From the NCBI RefSeq assembly GCF_022808715.1, contig NZ_JAKZKX010000013.1:1-42996 (forward strand): a stretch of 42,996 bases of DNA, written 5' to 3'. Both the position numbers and the translations under genes were made by a program. The notes under the pieces were generated by a model, which saw only the letters and a list, made by a program, of their open reading frames with translations, was not told the origin of the DNA and made no database searches. Within the stretch, counting starts at the first letter, position 1. Each line of letters starts with the position of its first letter. Source of the stretch: Fundidesulfovibrio agrisoli. GTDB taxonomy: Bacteria > Desulfobacterota > Desulfovibrionia > Desulfovibrionales > Desulfovibrionaceae. This document shows, piece by piece, positions 2,147-24,495 of this stretch.

Positions 2147-2305
2147 ATGAATTCATCCTGGGGAGGGCGCGAAGGGCCGCCGGCCGCGGGCCAGGCCGCG
2201 CGGCGCGGGTGCGCGGCGCCCACCCCGAATCCCGGCTGGCCGGGGCAGGGGGGTGCTACAAAAATGACGCGATCGACGCGAAGCTACGTAATGGTTTTCT
2301 TGAAG

Positions 2306-2351
2306 AAGCGCGAGGGGAAACTTTCCTGAAAAAAGTTTCCGCCCCGCGCTT
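2306..2351. other. Large imperfect hairpin in the tsf-pyrH spacer
   Basis: Inverted repeat with arms AAGCGCG and CGCGCTT (7 bp), continuing inward as GGGGAAACTT against AAGTTTCCGCCC, with an A-rich loop. It sits between the tsf terminator (2358-2388) and the pyrH start, so on the minus strand it could be in the pyrH leader. Its function is unknown. Confidence 0.55.
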
Positions 2352-2357
2352 GAGATC

Positions 2358-2388
2358 AAAAAAAACGGGCCTTGCGGCCCGTTTTTTC
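2358..2388 (-). terminator. Intrinsic terminator after tsf
   Basis: Perfect 7-bp stem ACGGGCC/GGCCCGT with loop TTGC, flanked by eight A on one side and six T on the other. It can therefore terminate on both strands. On the minus strand it lies just after the tsf stop and separates rpsB-tsf from pyrH-frr-uppS. Confidence 0.85.
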
Positions 2389-2393
2389 GGCAG

Positions 2394-3002
2394 TTATTCG
2401 GCTGCGTCTTCGCCCAGCTGCATGCGGACGAAGCGGCCGATCTGGATGTTTTCACCCAGGGTGGCCACCAGGTCGTTCAGCAGGGTCTGAACGGTGAGCT
2501 TGTCGTCCTTGATGTAGGGCTGCTCGAGCAGGCAGACTTCCTTGTAGTACTTCTTGACGCGGCCATCGACGATCTTGTCGATGATGTTGTCGGGCTTGCC
2601 CTCGGCCTTGGTCTGGGCGACGTAGATGTCCCTCTCCTTGGCGAGCACATCGGCGGGCACCTGCTCGGAGGAGACGCAGATGGGGTTAGCCGCGGCGATC
2701 TGCATGGCCACGTTCCTGGCGAACTCCTGGAACTTCTCGCCGCGGGCGACGAAGTCGGTCTCGCACTTGACTTCCACCAGCACGGCGATCTTGCCGTTGG
2801 AGTGGATGTAGGAGCCGATGACGCCTTCGGAGGTGGAGCGGCCGGCCTTCTTGGCGGCCTTGGCCAGGCCCTTTTCACGCAGCCAGGCAATGGCCTTTTC
2901 AGGATCGCAGTTGCAGGCCTCCAGGGCCTTCTTGCAGTCCATCATGCCCGCGCTGGTACGGTCGCGCAGTTCCTTGACAACACTGGCGCTGATCTGAGCC
3001 AT
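2394..3002 (-). CDS. tsf: Translation elongation factor Ts (short form)
   Basis: Guanine-nucleotide exchange factor for EF-Tu. The N-terminal UBA-like domain has TSAGMMDCKKAL. The core exchange motif TDFVAR is at residues 82-87, following VEVKCE. The protein is 202 residues, shorter than the roughly 280-residue E. coli form. It lacks most of the second core subdomain, as the short Thermus-type EF-Ts does. It starts two bases after the rpsB stop, so the two are co-transcribed, and it is followed by a strong terminator. Confidence 0.95.
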   Translation of the reverse strand: MAQISASVVKELRDRTSAGMMDCKKALEACNCDPEKAIAWLREKGLAKAAKKAGRSTSEGVIGSYIHSNGKIAVLVEVKCETDFVARGEKFQEFARNVAMQIAAANPICVSSEQVPADVLAKERDIYVAQTKAEGKPDNIIDKIVDGRVKKYYKEVCLLEQPYIKDDKLTVQTLLNDLVATLGENIQIGRFVRMQLGEDAAE

Positions 3003-3004
3003 GG

Positions 3005-3778
3005 CTATTGCTCCTCCTGCTCCGCGGCGGCTTCGGCCACCGGAGCGGCTTCGGGTTTCACTTCATCCTTACCGGCGGCAACCTCTTCCTTGGAAGCGGC
3101 CTGGCCTTCGAGGCAGGCGTCGGCCACGCAGGTGACGAAGAGCTTGATGGCGCGGATGGCGTCGTCGTTGCCGGGGATGATGTAGTCGATCAGGTCGGGA
3201 TCGCAGTTGGTGTCGACCACGGCCACGACGGGGATGCCCAGCTTGCGGCACTCCTGCACGGCGATCTCTTCACGCTTGGGGTCGATGATGAACGCGGCGG
3301 CGGGCAGGCCGTCCATGTCCTTGATGCCGCCCAGGGTGGCGTTGAGCTTGGTCACTTCGCGGCCGTACATGGAGATTTCTTTCTTGTGGTAGCGCTTGTG
3401 GATGGAGCCGTCCTCGAAGGCGGTCTCCAGCTTCTTCAGGCGGTCGATGGAGCCGCGGATGGTCTGGAAGTTGGTGAGCATGCCGCCCATCCAGCGGTGG
3501 GTCACGAAGTACTGGCCGGAGCGCTCGGCTTCCTTGCGGACGGCCTCCTGGGCCTGGCGCTTGGTGCCGACGAAGATGATGCGTCCGCCCTTGACCACGG
3601 TGTCGACCAGGAAGTCGTGGGCCTTCTGGAACAGCTTCACGGTCTGCTGGAGGTCGATGATATGGATGCCGTTGCGGGCGCCGAAGATGAAGGGGCGCAT
3701 TTTGGGGTTCCAACGGCGGGTCTGGTGTCCGAAGTGGACGCCGGTCTCGAGCAACTGCTTCATGGTGACGTAAGCCAT
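3005..3778 (-). CDS. rpsB: 30S ribosomal protein S2
   Basis: Small-subunit protein S2. The N-terminus ([20 protein letters not shown]) and the segments [19 protein letters not shown] and [10 protein letters not shown] are diagnostic. Near residue 200 there is the [21 protein letters not shown] segment. The 257-residue protein ends in an acidic Ala/Glu/Val-rich tail of about 30 residues, probably disordered. It is the first gene of the cluster, with an AAAGGAGAGA ribosome-binding site and a leader of about 100 bases behind a promoter at 3881-3909. S2 often autoregulates its operon through its leader, but I did not resolve a specific structure here. Confidence 0.97.
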
Positions 3779-3880
3779 GAGTCTCTCCTTTGGGTTTTTC
3801 CTCCACGCCGGGCCCCGCTGCCAGCCCGGAAGGGCACCCGTGGCGGCGATGACGGCGTGTGTGATGTTGTGAAGCAGGGA

Positions 3881-3909
3881 TAGCTACTACGCAATGCGCG
3901 TGTTGGCAA
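3881..3909 (-). promoter_or_regulatory. Putative sigma-70 promoter for rpsB-tsf
   Basis: On the minus strand TTGCCA (3904-3909) and TAGCTA (3881-3886) are separated by exactly 17 bases, about 100 bases upstream of the rpsB start. Prediction from consensus only. Confidence 0.55.
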
Positions 3910-3957
3910 GGGGGTAGGGGCCGGAGCGTGCGATTTTCGGCTCCGTGCAGGGCTGTT

Positions 3958-3994
3958 GTGCAAGGCCTTGCACTGGCATGTGCAGGCATGTGCA
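3958..3994. promoter_or_regulatory. Perfect 16-bp palindrome plus tandem repeats
   Basis: GTGCAAGGCCTTGCAC (3958-3973) is a perfect palindrome. It is followed at once by two direct copies of GGCATGTGCA (3975-3984, 3985-3994), the second running into AGGG. It lies in the 337-base divergent spacer between rpsB and the Met-rich protein gene. It looks like a regulator-binding array; the regulator is unknown. Confidence 0.45.
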
Positions 3995-4064
3995 AGGGCG
4001 GGTGCGCCGCATCGGCGATCTTTTTCATGAAAATCAGTCATTTCGAGCTGTTCTCCGTTGGCAC

Positions 4065-4096
4065 GCTCAATGCTACCGGGTCGGTAGGCATTGAGC
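4065..4096 (+). promoter_or_regulatory. Leader hairpin before the Met-rich protein
   Basis: GCTCAATGC-TACCG pairs with CGGTA-G-GCATTGAGC: 14 bp with one bulged G and a 3-base loop. It ends 19 bases before the start codon, just upstream of the AAAAGGAG ribosome-binding site. It could be an operator or a 5'-UTR structure stabilising the mRNA. Confidence 0.5.
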
Positions 4097-4115
4097 CCCA
4101 AAAGGAGTACAGAAT

Positions 4116-4799
4116 ATGTCCAAGACTTCCCGTTACCTGCAGGCCGTTGGCGGCATGTCCCTGGCTTTCCTCATCGGCCTGAGCGCCATGGCCGCCCAGG
4201 ACGCCGCCACCGCACCCAAGGCCGCCCCGCAGGCCCAAGCCCAGGCTCAGACCTCCGCCGCGTCCGCGCCCGCGAAGCCCCAGACCTTCGCCCCGGGCAT
4301 GCCCGGCTGGATGATGCACCTGCCCGCCGAGCAGCAGGAGACCGCCCGCAAGATCTGGCTCACGGAAGGCCGCACCGTCCTGGCCCTCAAGGAGATGCTC
4401 AAGGCCAAGCGTCATGAGCTCAACGCCATGATGGCCATGCCGAACGCGGACGACAAGGCCGTGGCCGCCCTGGTCAAGGAAGTCGCCTCCCAGGAGGAGA
4501 AGCTGCTCGGGGCCGAGGTCGCCCTGCGCCGCAAGCTGGAAAAGGAAGGCATTCCCACCTGGGGCCGCATGGACGGCATGATGGACGGCATGGGCGGCAA
4601 GGAAGGCTGCATGTCCGGCATGATGGACAAGATGGGCGGCATGATGATGGGCGGCAAGATGGATAAGATGGGCCAGATGGGCGGCATGATGGGCGGCATG
4701 GACCACTCCTCGGGCCATGACGCCGGTCAGGGCGGCATGGGCAAGCCCGCCGCTGCGGCCGCCACGCCGGCCGCCGGTCACGGCGCCCACAACGGATAA
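4116..4799 (+). CDS. Met/His-rich periplasmic protein, heavy-metal-resistance/Spy-like
   Basis: Exported 227-residue protein. Residues 1-28 form a signal peptide with a likely cut after SAMA. An Ala/Gln/Pro-rich linker follows, then a helical stretch (about 60-150) reminiscent of ZraP/CpxP/Spy periplasmic chaperone-sensors (PAEQQETARKIW, then a KEMLKAKRHELNAMMAMP segment). The region from about 150 to 200 is extremely rich in Met and Gly (repeats such as GMMDGMGG and GGMMMGG), and the tail carries several His (DHSSGHD, GHGAHNG). Such Met/His runs are typical of copper or silver binding, so a metal-buffering or envelope-stress role is inferred. The start has a good AAGGAG site. It is monocistronic: leader hairpin before it, terminator after it. 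Confidence 0.7.
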   Translation: MSKTSRYLQAVGGMSLAFLIGLSAMAAQDAATAPKAAPQAQAQAQTSAASAPAKPQTFAPGMPGWMMHLPAEQQETARKIWLTEGRTVLALKEMLKAKRHELNAMMAMPNADDKAVAALVKEVASQEEKLLGAEVALRRKLEKEGIPTWGRMDGMMDGMGGKEGCMSGMMDKMGGMMMGGKMDKMGQMGGMMGGMDHSSGHDAGQGGMGKPAAAAATPAAGHGAHNG

Positions 4800-4827
4800 C
4801 GGATTTCCCTCCATCCCTCGCATGGGC

Positions 4828-4862
4828 GGGCCACGGCGCGGCGTCGTGGCCCGTCTTACTTT
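4828..4862 (+). terminator. Probable terminator after the Met-rich protein
   Basis: Stem GGGCCACG/CGTGGCCC with a 9-base loop, followed by GTCTTACTTTTC. The T-run is interrupted, so efficiency is uncertain. Confidence 0.5.
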
Positions 4863-4993
4863 TCGGCGCGCAGCCCCGATCCGGATGCCCCCGGAAATGT
4901 TAGACTTGGCCGGGCGGAGCATGTACCGTGCCTCGCGGCGGACCGGGCGTTGCCCGCCGCCGCGAACCACATCCAGTTGCGCAGCGGTACACG

Positions 4994-20518: not shown

Positions 20519-20540
20519 CCCAGGCTGCGCAACTAAAGAA

Positions 20541-20567
20541 AAGGCCCCTCCAGTGAGGGGCCTTTTT
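20541..20567 (+). terminator. Intrinsic terminator after the FlgO-like gene
   Basis: Perfect 10-bp stem AAGGCCCCTC/GAGGGGCCTT, loop CAGT, then a T-run. It marks the right end of the AT-rich island. Confidence 0.9.
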
Positions 20568-20634: not shown

Positions 20635-22722
20635 CTACGCGGTCTCTTCCCTCTTCTGCGCGGCAACCTCGGCCTCGCACACGCCCTGGTACGTCACCCT
20701 GTCCGCGTACTCGGCCTGCTTGCCCTTGTTCCAGCGCGACACCGGGCGGTAGTACCCCACCACCCTGGTGAACACCTCGGCATCCTTGCCGCAGCTCGGG
20801 CAGAAGTGGTGCTCGCCGGAGATGTAGCCGTGCTCCTTGCACACGCTGAAGGTGGGCGTGATGGAGAGGTAGGGGATCTTGGTCATCTTGAAGGCGCGGA
20901 TGATGAAGTTCTTGAGCGCCTCGTGGTCGGCCACGGCCTCGCCCAGGAAGGTGTGGAACACGGTGCCGCCGGTGTAGAGCGGCTGCAGCTTGTTCTGATG
21001 CTCGAGCGAGGCGATGACGTCCTGGCTGAGGCCCACGGGCAGGTTGGTGGAGTTGGTGTAGTAGGGGGTGCCGTTGCCCGAGGCCTGGATGTCGGCGTAG
21101 AGCGACTTGTCGATCTTGGCCAGGCGGTAGCTGGTGCCCTCGGCCGGGGTGGCCTCCAGGTTGTAGAGGTTGCCGGTCTCCTCCTGGAAGCGGGAGGTCA
21201 GCTCGCGCAGGTGGTTCAGCGCCCGGGTCATCAGGCGCACGCCCGCATCGGTCTCGATGCCCTTGCCCAGGATGTTCAGGCAGGCCTCGTGCCCGCCCAC
21301 CAGGCCGATGGTGGCGAAGTGCCCCTTGTAGCCGTTCTTGAGGTAGCGGGCGCTCCAGGGGAACATCTTGCGGTCAAGGTGCTCCTGGATCATCTTGCGT
21401 TTGAACTCCAGGGCGTCCTTGGCCATGGTGGCGTACTCGGTGAGCAGGTCCAGGAAGTCCTCCTCGCCGTGGGAGAGGTAGGCCAGCTTGGGCAGGTTCA
21501 GCGTGACCACGCCGATGGAGCCGGTGAGGTCGCCCGCGCCGAACAGGCCGCCCACCTTGTTGCGCAGCTCGCGCAGGTCCATCTGGAGGCGGCAGCACAT
21601 GGAGCGCACGTCCTCGGGGGAGAGGTCGGAGTTGATGAAGTTCTGGAAGTAGGGCGCGCCGTAGCGGGCGGTGAGGTCCAGCAGCTTGGCCCCGATCTCG
21701 GAATCCCAGGGGAAGTCCTCGGTGACGTTGTAGGTGGGGATGGGGAAGGAGAAGATCTGCCCGGCGTAGTCGCCCTCGCCCATGACCTCCAGGAAGGCCC
21801 GGTTGAACATGTCCATCTCGGCCTGGAACTCGCCGTAGGTGGCGTCCTGCAGCTTGCCGCCGATGATGACGGCCTCCTTGGCGATGTGCTTGGGGGGCGT
21901 GAGGTCGAAGCTCAGGTTGGTGAAGGGGGTCTGGCCGCCCCAGCGCGAGGTGGTGTTCAGGTTGAACACGAATTTCTGCACGGCCTGGCGCACCTGGCGG
22001 TAGTCCAGCCCGTCGTGGCGGATGAAGGGCGCCAGGTAGGTGTCCACGTTGTTGAAGGCCTGGGCCCCGGCCCACTCGTTCTGCAGCGTGCCCAGGAAGT
22101 TGACCATCTGCCCCAGGGCGGAGTCGAAGTGGCGGGCCGGGCCGGCGGAGGAGCGGCCCTCCAGGTTGAAGCCCTCCAGCAGCAGGTCGCGCAGGCTCCA
22201 GCCCGCGCAGTAGCCCGCCAGGCCGAAGGAGAGGTCGTGGATGTGGAAATACCCGTGGTCGTGGGCGGAGCGCACCTCCTCGGGGTATTTCTCAAGGGCG
22301 TAGCGGGCCTGCACCGTGCCGGAGAGGTGCAGCATCAGCCCCTGGAAGGAGTGGCTCATGTTGGCGTTCTCGGCCACGCGCCAGTCCGCCTTGGAGATGT
22401 AGTTGTCGATGGTCTCCGCGATGTCCAGGAAGGCGGCCTTCTGCTCGCGCAGGGAGCGGCGCTTCTCGCGGTAGATGATGAAGCGCTTGGCCACGTCGAA
22501 CAGGCGCGAGTCCATGAGCACGCGCTCGACCATGTCCTGCACGTGCTCCTGCACGGGCACGTCCACGCCCTCGAGCTTCTCCTCCACCTTGCGGGCCAGG
22601 CGCTTGGCCAGAAGCGGGTCCTGCACGCCGCTGGCGCGCAGGGCCTTGAGGATGGCCTGGGCGATGCGCTCCAGGGACCAGGTTTCCAAGCATCCGTCGC
22701 GCTTCATTATCTGCTGGGGCAT
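20635..22722 (-). CDS. nrdD: Anaerobic (class III) ribonucleoside-triphosphate reductase
   Basis: Glycyl-radical enzyme reducing NTPs to dNTPs without oxygen. It is 695 residues from MPQQIMKRDG; an upstream extension runs through nrdG and was rejected. An N-terminal ATP-cone (about 5-90) gives allosteric control of activity. The C-terminal domain has the zinc cysteines (C628, C641 and C644 visible) and the radical motif RVVGYYRPVSRWN with Gly656. GGTVFHTFLGE and TPTFSVCKEHGYI are also typical. It starts one base after the nrdG stop, so the two are coupled. A cobalamin riboswitch heads the operon. The radical form is destroyed by oxygen. Confidence 0.96.
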   Translation of the reverse strand: MPQQIMKRDGCLETWSLERIAQAILKALRASGVQDPLLAKRLARKVEEKLEGVDVPVQEHVQDMVERVLMDSRLFDVAKRFIIYREKRRSLREQKAAFLDIAETIDNYISKADWRVAENANMSHSFQGLMLHLSGTVQARYALEKYPEEVRSAHDHGYFHIHDLSFGLAGYCAGWSLRDLLLEGFNLEGRSSAGPARHFDSALGQMVNFLGTLQNEWAGAQAFNNVDTYLAPFIRHDGLDYRQVRQAVQKFVFNLNTTSRWGGQTPFTNLSFDLTPPKHIAKEAVIIGGKLQDATYGEFQAEMDMFNRAFLEVMGEGDYAGQIFSFPIPTYNVTEDFPWDSEIGAKLLDLTARYGAPYFQNFINSDLSPEDVRSMCCRLQMDLRELRNKVGGLFGAGDLTGSIGVVTLNLPKLAYLSHGEEDFLDLLTEYATMAKDALEFKRKMIQEHLDRKMFPWSARYLKNGYKGHFATIGLVGGHEACLNILGKGIETDAGVRLMTRALNHLRELTSRFQEETGNLYNLEATPAEGTSYRLAKIDKSLYADIQASGNGTPYYTNSTNLPVGLSQDVIASLEHQNKLQPLYTGGTVFHTFLGEAVADHEALKNFIIRAFKMTKIPYLSITPTFSVCKEHGYISGEHHFCPSCGKDAEVFTRVVGYYRPVSRWNKGKQAEYADRVTYQGVCEAEVAAQKREETA

Positions 22723-22723
22723 T

Positions 22724-23401
22724 TCAGGCTCCCTTCCCCTCGGACTTCGGGGGGATGTATGTTTGTTCCGTAAGCTCGTGGCCGGGGGGCAGGCATTCGC
22801 GCACCCGCCGGACATCCTCCGGGGCGAGCCCCGGAACGAGCGTGGTTCTGAAGAAAAACGACCCGGGCCGGGCCTCGGCCAGGGCGAAAATCCGTTTCAG
22901 GGCGGCGCGCGCCGCCTCCGGGCTTGTGGCGCCGCCGGTGAGCTCGGGATAGCGCTCCCAGGGGCCCTTGACGTCCACGGCGAAGATGGTGCCGGGGTGC
23001 AGGGCCAGAATGTGCTCCACCACCCCGGGCAGCATGCCGTTGGTGTCCACCTTTACCGGCAGGCCCAGGCCGGTGAGCCTGCCCACGAGGTTCGGCAGGC
23101 CGTGGTCCAGCGTGGGCTCCCCGCCGCAGACCACCACGCCGTCAAGCCAGCGCGAACGTTGCGTCAACGTGCGCATGACGTTGTTGCGGTCCAGTTCGGG
23201 GTGCTTTTCCGGGGTGAAGGCCAGGCTCTGGTTGTGGCAGGTGGGGCAGCGCAGGTTGCACCCGCCCAGATAGATCACGCTCACGCTGCGCCCCGGCCAG
23301 TCGCACAGGGAGAAGGGCGTGAAGGCCCTGAGCCGGGCCTCGGTCGCGGTGGGCGCGCTGGGGCTCGGGGCCGTGGTCAGGGTGCGGGCGAGATTTTCCA
23401 T
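22724..23401 (-). CDS. nrdG: Radical-SAM activating enzyme for class III RNR
   Basis: Installs the glycyl radical on NrdD using S-adenosylmethionine and a [4Fe-4S] cluster. It is 225 residues from MENLARTL, with a GAGGAA site. The cluster motif C48-NLR-C52-PT-C55 has the expected CX3CX2C spacing. Next come VVCGGEPTLDHG (SAM-binding GGE) and PVKVDTNGMLPG. Unusually it precedes nrdD; the common order is nrdD-nrdG. The stop is followed after one base by the nrdD ATG. Within the family it resembles the longer NrdG-type activases (AnrSAM) rather than the 155-residue E. coli NrdG. Confidence 0.93.
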   Translation of the reverse strand: MENLARTLTTAPSPSAPTATEARLRAFTPFSLCDWPGRSVSVIYLGGCNLRCPTCHNQSLAFTPEKHPELDRNNVMRTLTQRSRWLDGVVVCGGEPTLDHGLPNLVGRLTGLGLPVKVDTNGMLPGVVEHILALHPGTIFAVDVKGPWERYPELTGGATSPEAARAALKRIFALAEARPGSFFFRTTLVPGLAPEDVRRVRECLPPGHELTEQTYIPPKSEGKGA

Positions 23402-23501
23402 AGGCAATGATTCCTCTACCGCTAGCATATCGGCGCGGCCCAATGAAGAGAAAAATGCCACGTGATATGCAACAGTTACGACACAAGGGCTGCAACGGCT
23501 C

Positions 23502-23519
23502 GACAATAAAGGAATTGTC
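23502..23519. promoter_or_regulatory. Dyad GACAAT-N6-ATTGTC in the nrdG leader
   Basis: Perfect 6-bp inverted repeat, 100 bases before the nrdG start and after the riboswitch. It could be an operator or an RNA hairpin. It does not match the NrdR box well. Confidence 0.3.
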
Positions 23520-23629
23520 AAAATGAGAAAAACAGCACGCCCGGAGCGAGGTGGTGGACGCCCGCCGAAGCAATTCCGGCTGGCGATTCGCGGGAGCCCG
23601 TGCCCGTTTCGCGGGGCATGGCCTGATCT

Positions 23630-23766
23630 CCCCAGGGACGTCTTCTGGCTTCCGGCGGGGTGGTGCCCGGAGGCCTTCCCAGGTTTTCACCCAGTGGCCT
23701 CCGCCCATGTGCCGGTTACAGCAGCGCGCCTGCGACGGACTTGCACCGTCTTCCGTTTCCCGGGGC
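23630..23766 (-). ncRNA. Cobalamin (B12) riboswitch
   Basis: Minus-strand landmarks in order: GGTGCAAGTCC, GCGCTGCTGTAACC, GCCACTGG, ACCTGGGAAGGC, and GCCAGAAGAC (the B12-box region). Closing arms GCCCCGGG and CCCTGGGG form a P1-like stem. This is the conserved order of cobalamin riboswitches. It lies in the roughly 370-base leader of nrdG-nrdD. I could not identify the expression platform; it may act on transcription further downstream. Confidence 0.85.
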
Positions 23767-23778
23767 GTACAGGAATGA

Positions 23779-23808
23779 TTCTTACAGATTATCCGTGAAG
23801 GCTGTCAA
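23779..23808 (-). promoter_or_regulatory. Promoter of the riboswitch-nrdG-nrdD operon
   Basis: TTGACA (23803-23808) and TAAGAA (23779-23784) with an 18-base spacer, placed so that transcription would start a few bases before the riboswitch. The 23809-23898 spacer also holds a strong hairpin (about 23853-23890, arms GCGGGCTGCGG/CCGCAGCCCGC) after plsY, without a proper T-run. Confidence 0.6.
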
Positions 23809-23898
23809 GCGACGAATTACAACCCTTTGATACGGCAGGGCTTTTTTTTGCGCGGGCTGCGGCTGGGCCGATACAGGCTCCGCAGCCCGCGTTGCGGC

Positions 23899-24495
23899 TC
23901 AGTCGTCTTTTTTCTTTTTCCAAGGTTTTTCAGTGCCTTGGCGCAGGCGCTCGATGTTCTCCCGATGCTTCCAGACCACCAGGCCCGCGATCACGAAGGC
24001 CACGGGCACCACGCTGCCCGGCCCGAACCACCAGACCGTGAAGGGCAGGCTCACCGCCAGCAGCAGCGACCCCAGGGAGACGAAGCCCGAGATGGCGATG
24101 GCGGCCACGCACAGGCCCACGGAGACAAGCGTGGCGGGCGCCGACAGCGCCAGGAACGCGCCGATGGTGGTGGCCACGCCCTTGCCGCCCTTGTAGCGCA
24201 GGAACACCGGGAAGATGTGCCCGGCCACGGCGGCCAGGGCCACCAGGGAGGGGTAGAAGCCCTCGCAGCTCATCTGCCAGGCCACGGCGACGGGGATGAG
24301 GCCCTTGAGGGCGTCCAGCACCAGGGTCAGCACGCCGAGCTTCGTGCCGCACAGGCGCGAGACGTTGGTGGCCCCGATGTTGCGGCTGCCCGCGGTGCGC
24401 GGGTCGATGCCCCGGGCGGCCTGGGCGATGAACAATCCGAAGGGGAACGAGCCGGCCAGATAGGCCAGGGCCAGCCAGGCGATCTTGGCGAACAT
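23899..24495 (-). CDS. plsY: Acyl-phosphate:glycerol-3-phosphate acyltransferase
   Basis: Inner-membrane enzyme that puts the first acyl chain on glycerol-3-phosphate using acyl phosphate. It is 198 residues with about five membrane helices. The three active-site loops are visible: GSFPFG near residue 16, GSRNIGATNVSR near 37, and KGGKGVATTIG near 104. The last residues are a Lys-rich cytoplasmic tail. It starts three bases after the RNB ribonuclease gene and so shares its transcript. The next acylation step could be done by the PlsC-like protein at 9089-9823. Confidence 0.95.
   Translation of the reverse strand: MFAKIAWLALAYLAGSFPFGLFIAQAARGIDPRTAGSRNIGATNVSRLCGTKLGVLTLVLDALKGLIPVAVAWQMSCEGFYPSLVALAAVAGHIFPVFLRYKGGKGVATTIGAFLALSAPATLVSVGLCVAAIAISGFVSLGSLLLAVSLPFTVWWFGPGSVVPVAFVIAGLVVWKHRENIERLRQGTEKPWKKKKDD

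Follow-up and report, generated by a model that had tools for sequence, protein, structure and literature searches.

Repression of B12-free isozymes by cobalamin (B12) has published precedent (PMC545781, PMC9600662, each in its accessible part). In the accessible portion of Rodionov et al. (2004; PMC545781), B12-elements precede nrdDG in Desulfovibrio vulgaris and Desulfuromonas, the delta-proteobacteria studied have the B12-dependent class II ribonucleotide reductase NrdJ, and B12 is proposed to repress the B12-free isozyme, an idea that dates from 2003-2004. Isozymes of B12-dependent enzymes are named as one class of cobalamin-riboswitch targets in PMC3766115, with nrd genes absent from its main text as far as accessible. 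A metE cobalamin riboswitch has been reported for Oleidesulfovibrio alaskensis G20 (PMC11124144, accessible in part), and the accessible text on the metE corrinoid riboswitch of Priestia megaterium describes repression of a B12-free isozyme and an L5-L13 kissing loop with a P13 hairpin (PMC9600662, PMC10653944). Here we analysed a stretch of 42,996 nucleotides of Fundidesulfovibrio agrisoli (contig NZ_JAKZKX010000013.1; hereafter the window), in which a cobalamin riboswitch lies on the minus strand before nrdG-nrdD, the operon that encodes the class III (anaerobic) ribonucleotide reductase, a B12-independent enzyme. Reportedly, the class Ia nrdABS genes of Streptomyces, which are class I and of an unrelated lineage, are likewise under a B12 riboswitch, in a setting where a B12-free reductase accompanies NrdJ.

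Because both the arrangement and the logic stand in the accessible part of PMC545781, the locus belongs to a kind already described: as in D. vulgaris and Desulfuromonas, a cobalamin riboswitch precedes a class III reductase, NrdJ is present in the Desulfovibrio relative, and the same logic is proposed. The present operon differs in belonging to the nrdD lineage designated clade A below and in carrying an aptamer of metE type, whereas riboswitch-linked nrdD genes of its relatives mostly belong to groups B, C and D, a contrast drawn from our own genome survey and not from the sequences of that paper. Within the reach of our literature searches, four elements appear to be new: the targeting of a clade-A operon, an aptamer of metE type, the absence of full-length metE from the genus, and a candidate second promoter; no paper with a metE-type riboswitch on nrdG-nrdD was recognised, subscription papers lying mostly outside the search, and no measurement of B12 repression for an nrdD switch was found in the literature searched.

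The riboswitch, its operon and the partner reductase

A scan of the window with the Rfam covariance models gave a single match above a gathering score, RF00174, which covered the model at full length (positions 1-189 of 189) and reached 75 bits against a gathering score of 31.5 (Table 1). The conserved cobalamin blocks that the initial annotation had picked out from the letters lie inside this match. The conserved core GCCACTG ... GGGAAGG ... GCCAGAAGAC is present in the RF00174 alignment and is kept in all six genomes of the genus that carry the element, GCCAG of the core reading GTCAG in three of them. The aptamer stands before nrdG-nrdD in 6/7 genus genomes; the exception, a genome 66% complete, yielded no match to nrdD. 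The minus-strand order of nrdG followed by nrdD, as first read, was borne out by the protein family matches; the two genes adjoin, as in class III reductase operons, with a TGA-A-ATG junction. The start codon of nrdG (ATG, 23401) was chosen by its ribosome binding site, and the NrdG score falls about two bits below the TIGR02495 cut-off of 131.15. The nrdG-first order had been regarded as an oddity; it is not one, since nrdG lies upstream in all 69 clade-A nrdD genes.

The search for a class II reductase in the 3.94 Mb genome (52 contigs, 100% complete) returned exactly one gene, a single PF02867 member that is NrdJ (G000:C14; NF006417, 1215 bits, cut-off 961), and a profile search of the same genome found no class I small subunit. 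Because of this inventory, it is plausible that B12 governs the choice between NrdJ and NrdD. The genome holds three cobalamin riboswitches, which precede nrdG, a cbiK-like gene (188.8 bits, below the family cut-off of 400) and cobT (434.6 bits, above cut-off). To place these findings, a survey of 119 genomes of the family joined the positions of nrdD, NrdJ and riboswitches (265 riboswitch matches, searched in three parts). Among genomes with a classified nrdD, riboswitch-linked nrdD occurred in 64/97 genomes with NrdJ and in 2/11 without it (Fisher p 0.003, uncorrected for kinship); among genomes at least 90% complete the counts were 59/83 and 2/10 (p 0.003), and counting G093 as well, 65/97 NrdJ genomes have such a gene. 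In each of the genera g42, g19, g12 and g7, the riboswitch before nrdD is missing from NrdJ-less members but present in a congener with NrdJ; one of the NrdJ-less genomes (G076) is 73% complete. The switching between class II and class III synthesis suggested by the initial annotation thus gains from the single NrdJ, the missing class I small subunit and the association across the family; as a general rule it loses, on account of 22 genomes that have NrdJ and only unswitched clade-A nrdD and of the g8 leaders, both described below. Judged from genome content, whole genomes would bear out a 20-year-old prediction for sulfate reducers, in which B12 determines which of two ribonucleotide reductases is used.

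Distribution among nrdD lineages and kinship of the aptamer

Among the 150 nrdD matches listed, 147 were classified, three fragments without a fetched locus being dropped (one in G099, two in G113). A FastTree tree of 116 rows separated clade A (69 rows; Shimodaira-Hasegawa [SH] support 98) from clade B (29 rows, lone nrdD) and clade C (17 rows, nrdG downstream where found), with one long row standing apart from all three; 31 more distant nrdD genes (D) were kept outside the tree. An RF00174 riboswitch at most 2.6 kb upstream on the same strand was found for 8/69 A, 28/29 B (two of these matches, in G057 and G108, below the gathering score), 16/17 C and 15/31 D genes. A second model (R1), built from short-form B and nrdJ leaders, added the last B gene (G093, 108 bits) and the clade-A operon of G036, and nothing else among 61 unswitched A loci, which brought the totals to 9/69 A and 29/29 B. 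The G036 operon has a short-form cobalamin-riboswitch-like leader (L135:1397-1556; R1 48 bits) that RF00174 missed. R1 scores 12 bits on the riboswitch of the window; it is blind to metE-type aptamers, and therefore RF00174 alone informs on these. The clade-A carriers belong to the genera g1, g16, g32 and g36, the aptamers of g16 and g32 grouping together (91; 97/35). A riboswitch on a clade-A nrdG-nrdD operon is therefore unusual and mostly lacking in the operons of relatives; several independent gains are the simpler reading, with the tree counts compatible with either gain or loss. No cobalamin match was found in the 17 of 80 named nrdD loci of near relatives that were scanned with Rfam, which are weaker evidence than whole genomes because several of these contigs begin 0.4-1.5 kb from nrdD. 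The link between riboswitch and nrdD is thus not fixed: which nrdD lineage is switched varies with the genus, and the RNA parts differ in origin.

The aptamer tree placed the six nrdG aptamers of the genus together with 12 metE aptamers of other genera on one side of a branch supported at 99/99, against 64 others. It holds 82 trimmed rows of 114, with 28 lacking the trimming motif and 4 too short, whereby 3 of the 15 metE aptamers were lost. Loop L5 reads CGCGC in all 18 metE/nrdG-type aptamers and CCCGC in 58/64 others, and the motif CGGAAGACGGTG is likewise common to the metE and nrdG aptamers, so that both the grouping and L5 assign the element to the metE-type lineage. By plain alignment score, the nearest aptamers outside the genus to that of the window are those before metE in g41 and g25; for G075, a third type of riboswitch from the same genome scores level with one of these (176 and 176). 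Approximately unbiased (AU) tests rejected trees that join the nrdG aptamers with those of C (p 1e-9) or of D (p 0.0002) and, weakly, with those of the genus's third type (p 0.014) or of the cbiK type (p 0.024), although the comparison groups are not all clades themselves and constraining them therefore costs likelihood by itself. Because a clade of metE aptamers alone is also unrejected (p 0.65), the tree is silent on direction, that is, on sister group versus offshoot. Full-length metE above cut-off was present in 17/40 genomes searched, including 3/3 of g41, 3/5 of g25 and 0/7 of the genus, and a riboswitch lies directly upstream of it in 15/17 (joined by eye). Below cut-off, a partial match to the catalytic part of metE was seen in 6/7 genus genomes, and a MetH-like match in 16/16 genomes searched.

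The genus most likely took its nrdG riboswitch from a metE leader. Three points temper this: the branches of the aptamer tree are long and its columns few, joining the nrdG aptamers with those of nrdD-B is rejected weakly (p 0.035), and the genus's own cobT type offers a competing source. That the aptamer was copied from this cobT riboswitch, its likeness to metE arising by convergence or long-branch attraction, appears rather unlikely to us; the AU test leaves it unrejected (p 0.16; 0.159 unrounded, log-likelihood 15.8 lower) and the tree tool flags long branches meeting between these groups, but the unconstrained tree joins the metE and nrdG aptamers, which share CGGAAGACGGTG and the L5 motif CGCGC. 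As to how an origin from metE came about, we tentatively suggest, as a possibility somewhat short of even, that a metE riboswitch was re-used on nrdG-nrdD when or before the genus lost metE and came to lie 5' of a promoter-like element already present, so that a switch with two promoters resulted, and that class III reductases gain riboswitches repeatedly and from different lineages. If true, such a transfer would be a clear case of riboswitch re-use on another B12-free isozyme. The MetH-like match (G000:C12:47365-49761, and in six congeners) contains one in-frame TAG in 7/7 genus genomes; this is probably the regular termination codon, close to the end of a short MetH.

The leader and its proposed mode of control

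The coordinates of the operon and its leader are collected in Table 1. The good promoter that had been proposed before the aptamer stands as far as its TTGACA hexamer (P1) is concerned, but its second hexamer is poor, which is why a simple promoter scan missed it (0 found, 0.2 expected). Directly 3' of the aptamer lies the hairpin P13, the stem pairing of which is retained through sequence changes among the genus leaders. L5 and the P13 loop are complementary over four bases and form a candidate L5-L13 kissing loop, drawn by analogy from the published riboswitches (accessible part of PMC10653944); a CGCG hairpin also follows 35/64 other aptamers and hence does not discriminate. Then follow hairpin H1, a C-rich stretch, the T run and the dyad GACAAT/ATTGTC, which the initial annotation had pointed out and which is indeed there; as RNA it is matched by equally low shuffles in 1% of cases in this species and in 8, 28, 16, 68 and 31% in the five other leaders. 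RNAalifold gave a weak consensus for the six leaders (covariation term -0.86). Nearer to nrdG, the promoter-like motif P2 occurs in 6/6 genus leaders (with unlike spacers) and in 0/63 other clade-A leaders, and only once in the whole window on both strands; it fits the sigma-70 consensus poorly and was not called by the promoter scan. By eye, the leaders showed no convincing pair of NrdR boxes, for which no dedicated search was run, and no sigma-54 element.

Table 1. Features of the nrdG-nrdD locus in the window, with the g8 loci of the last section
Feature	Position	Strand	Basis
Promoter P1: TTGACA at 23803-23808, weak -10 region ending at the first base of the aptamer	23779..23808	-	TTGACA in 6/6 genus genomes
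Cobalamin riboswitch aptamer	23618..23779	-	RF00174, E 7.8e-17
Loop L5 segment GGCGCGC	23724..23730	-	CGCGC of the metE/nrdG type
Hairpin P13, loop CGCG able to kiss L5	23601..23618	-	stem sequence varies between species, pairing kept
Strong hairpin H1 after P13	23559..23585	-	-15.3 kcal/mol; beats at least about 98% of shuffles in 4/6 genus genomes, not in two
Five-T run preceded by weak hairpins only, possible early termination site	23528..23532	-	sequence, folds
Dyad GACAAT/ATTGTC	23502..23519	-	sequence; folding test mixed
Promoter-like bipartite motif CTT-N16-TNTGYTA (P2), 21 bases 5' of nrdG	23423..23448	-	6/6 in genus
Ribosome binding site AGAGGAA of nrdG	23411..23417	-	sequence
nrdG, class III reductase activase, 225 aa	22724..23401	-	best NCBIfam match TIGR02495 NrdG2, E 1.8e-37, 128.6 bits
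nrdD, class III (anaerobic) ribonucleotide reductase, 695 aa	20635..22722	-	NF006126 1028 bits (cut-off 548), TIGR02487 532 bits (cut-off 326)
Terminator-like hairpin with T-rich tail, 3' of nrdD	20535..20567	-	seen in sequence
g8 loci	L085:5142-5286 and 2223-4907; L087:2176-2321; L088:4570-4704; L263:3016-3158; L264:2986-3128; L086:1021-1165		

We consider it likely that this metE-type riboswitch controls the B12-independent class III operon in the following way. Transcription from P1 would allow the leader to fold into the aptamer; with the B12 coenzyme bound, L5 would pair with L13 of P13 and transcription would stop within about 100 bases after P13, so that nrdG-nrdD would stay low and NrdJ would supply deoxynucleotides. 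When B12 is scarce, the leader would be read through and NrdD would take over. P2 is probably a second promoter that would give some B12-independent transcription, maybe bypassing the switch. Transcription attenuation is favoured over translational control because 216 bases separate the end of the aptamer from the start codon of nrdG, and the early stop is perhaps a case of Rho-dependent termination. With what would be a single reductase of class III and a single one of class II, the genus lends itself to a simple test.

A number of observations speak against this proposal, or against its extension to other genera. The expression platform had been described as not obvious, and this holds: a terminator scan of the minus strand from 23350 to 23950 returned no terminator-like site, and thus no intrinsic terminator follows the aptamer. 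An antiterminator of the kind described for P. megaterium metE, whose L5 reads UCCCG (accessible parts of PMC9600662 and PMC10653944), found no support here, with duplexes between the 3' arm of P13 and downstream sequence matched by 36-96% of shuffles in all six leaders. The same check on metE leaders of the family was likewise no better than shuffles (21-92%, in the five leaders where it was run). Those family metE riboswitches resemble the nrdG element in aptamer lineage, in L5 CGCGC and in a P13 with CGCG loop but differ in their target gene, and in some genera the metE leaders carry strong terminators (4/13 by script), a feature that the nrdG leader lacks. P2, if real, would blunt control by the riboswitch. 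At the level of the family, G101 (g39) and G048 (g8) keep an nrdD riboswitch without a match to NrdJ, and of the 31 genomes with clade-A nrdD only, 24 are unswitched, 22 of them with NrdJ. Finally, cobalamin-riboswitch-like leaders stand in g8 before both nrdD and an NrdJ of B12-dependent type, and the same switch on both kinds of enzyme misfits simple repression by B12 as a general rule.

The lack of a canonical terminator would also suit control of translation, in which the B12-bound aptamer refolds the long leader and hides the nrdG ribosome binding site; minimum-energy folds do pair the leader end with distant parts in some species, and the clade-A aptamers of g16 and g32 end some 20 bases short of the start codon assigned to nrdG. 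The 216 bases that separate aptamer and start codon in the window, and the want of a conserved sequestering stem in the six-species consensus, make this unlikely, although of the alternatives on the mode of control it has the most to recommend it. Improbable, in our judgement, is that the aptamer is a relic without effect and P2 alone drives the operon. The P2-like motif in 6/6 genus genomes and the lack of an evident expression platform would be in keeping with it, but the aptamer core, TTGACA of P1 and P13 have been kept although the NrdD proteins differ by 10% and the leaders are otherwise little alike. Still harder to credit is activation of nrdG-nrdD on corrinoid binding, for which one activating corrinoid riboswitch, that of cobT in Alkalihalobacillus halodurans, provides a precedent in the accessible part of PMC10653944. 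The 3' arm of P13 in the window (GGGCACG) is complementary to CGTGC just 5' of the T run, but the other species do not preserve this pairing, shuffled sequences do equally well, and induction by B12 of a B12-free isozyme beside NrdJ would make no physiological sense.

Neighbouring genes and riboswitch loci of other genera

In the window, the same strand carries plsY and an RNase-II-family gene upstream of the operon. Short cobalamin-riboswitch-like leaders (36-46 bits) stand in g8 before a class-II-type NrdJ (about 900 aa) in 5/6 genomes and before nrdD in 6/6 (Table 1). These leaders are without the GCCACTG/GGGAAGG arm, and GCCAGNNNNCC replaces GCCAGAAGAC; they may represent the class II form of the cobalamin riboswitch. 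The two leaders of G007 are alike even beyond the aptamer, and the best solved relative of the g8 NrdJ is a B12-dependent reductase (1xje). In G048 of the same genus, a cobalamin riboswitch precedes metE (L089:3290-3419).

Elsewhere, G032 has a riboswitch-nrdD unit directly followed by a riboswitch-metE unit (L098:763-942 and 3474-3680), so that two switched B12-free isozymes adjoin. In G098, two strong cobalamin riboswitches lie back to back, at L099:2088-2277 on the minus and 2516-2717 on the plus strand, one of them facing nrdD. Two Solidesulfovibrio records carry cyclic di-AMP (c-di-AMP) riboswitches about 3 kb upstream of nrdD (L005:637-771 and L007:585-720; 91 and 89 bits).

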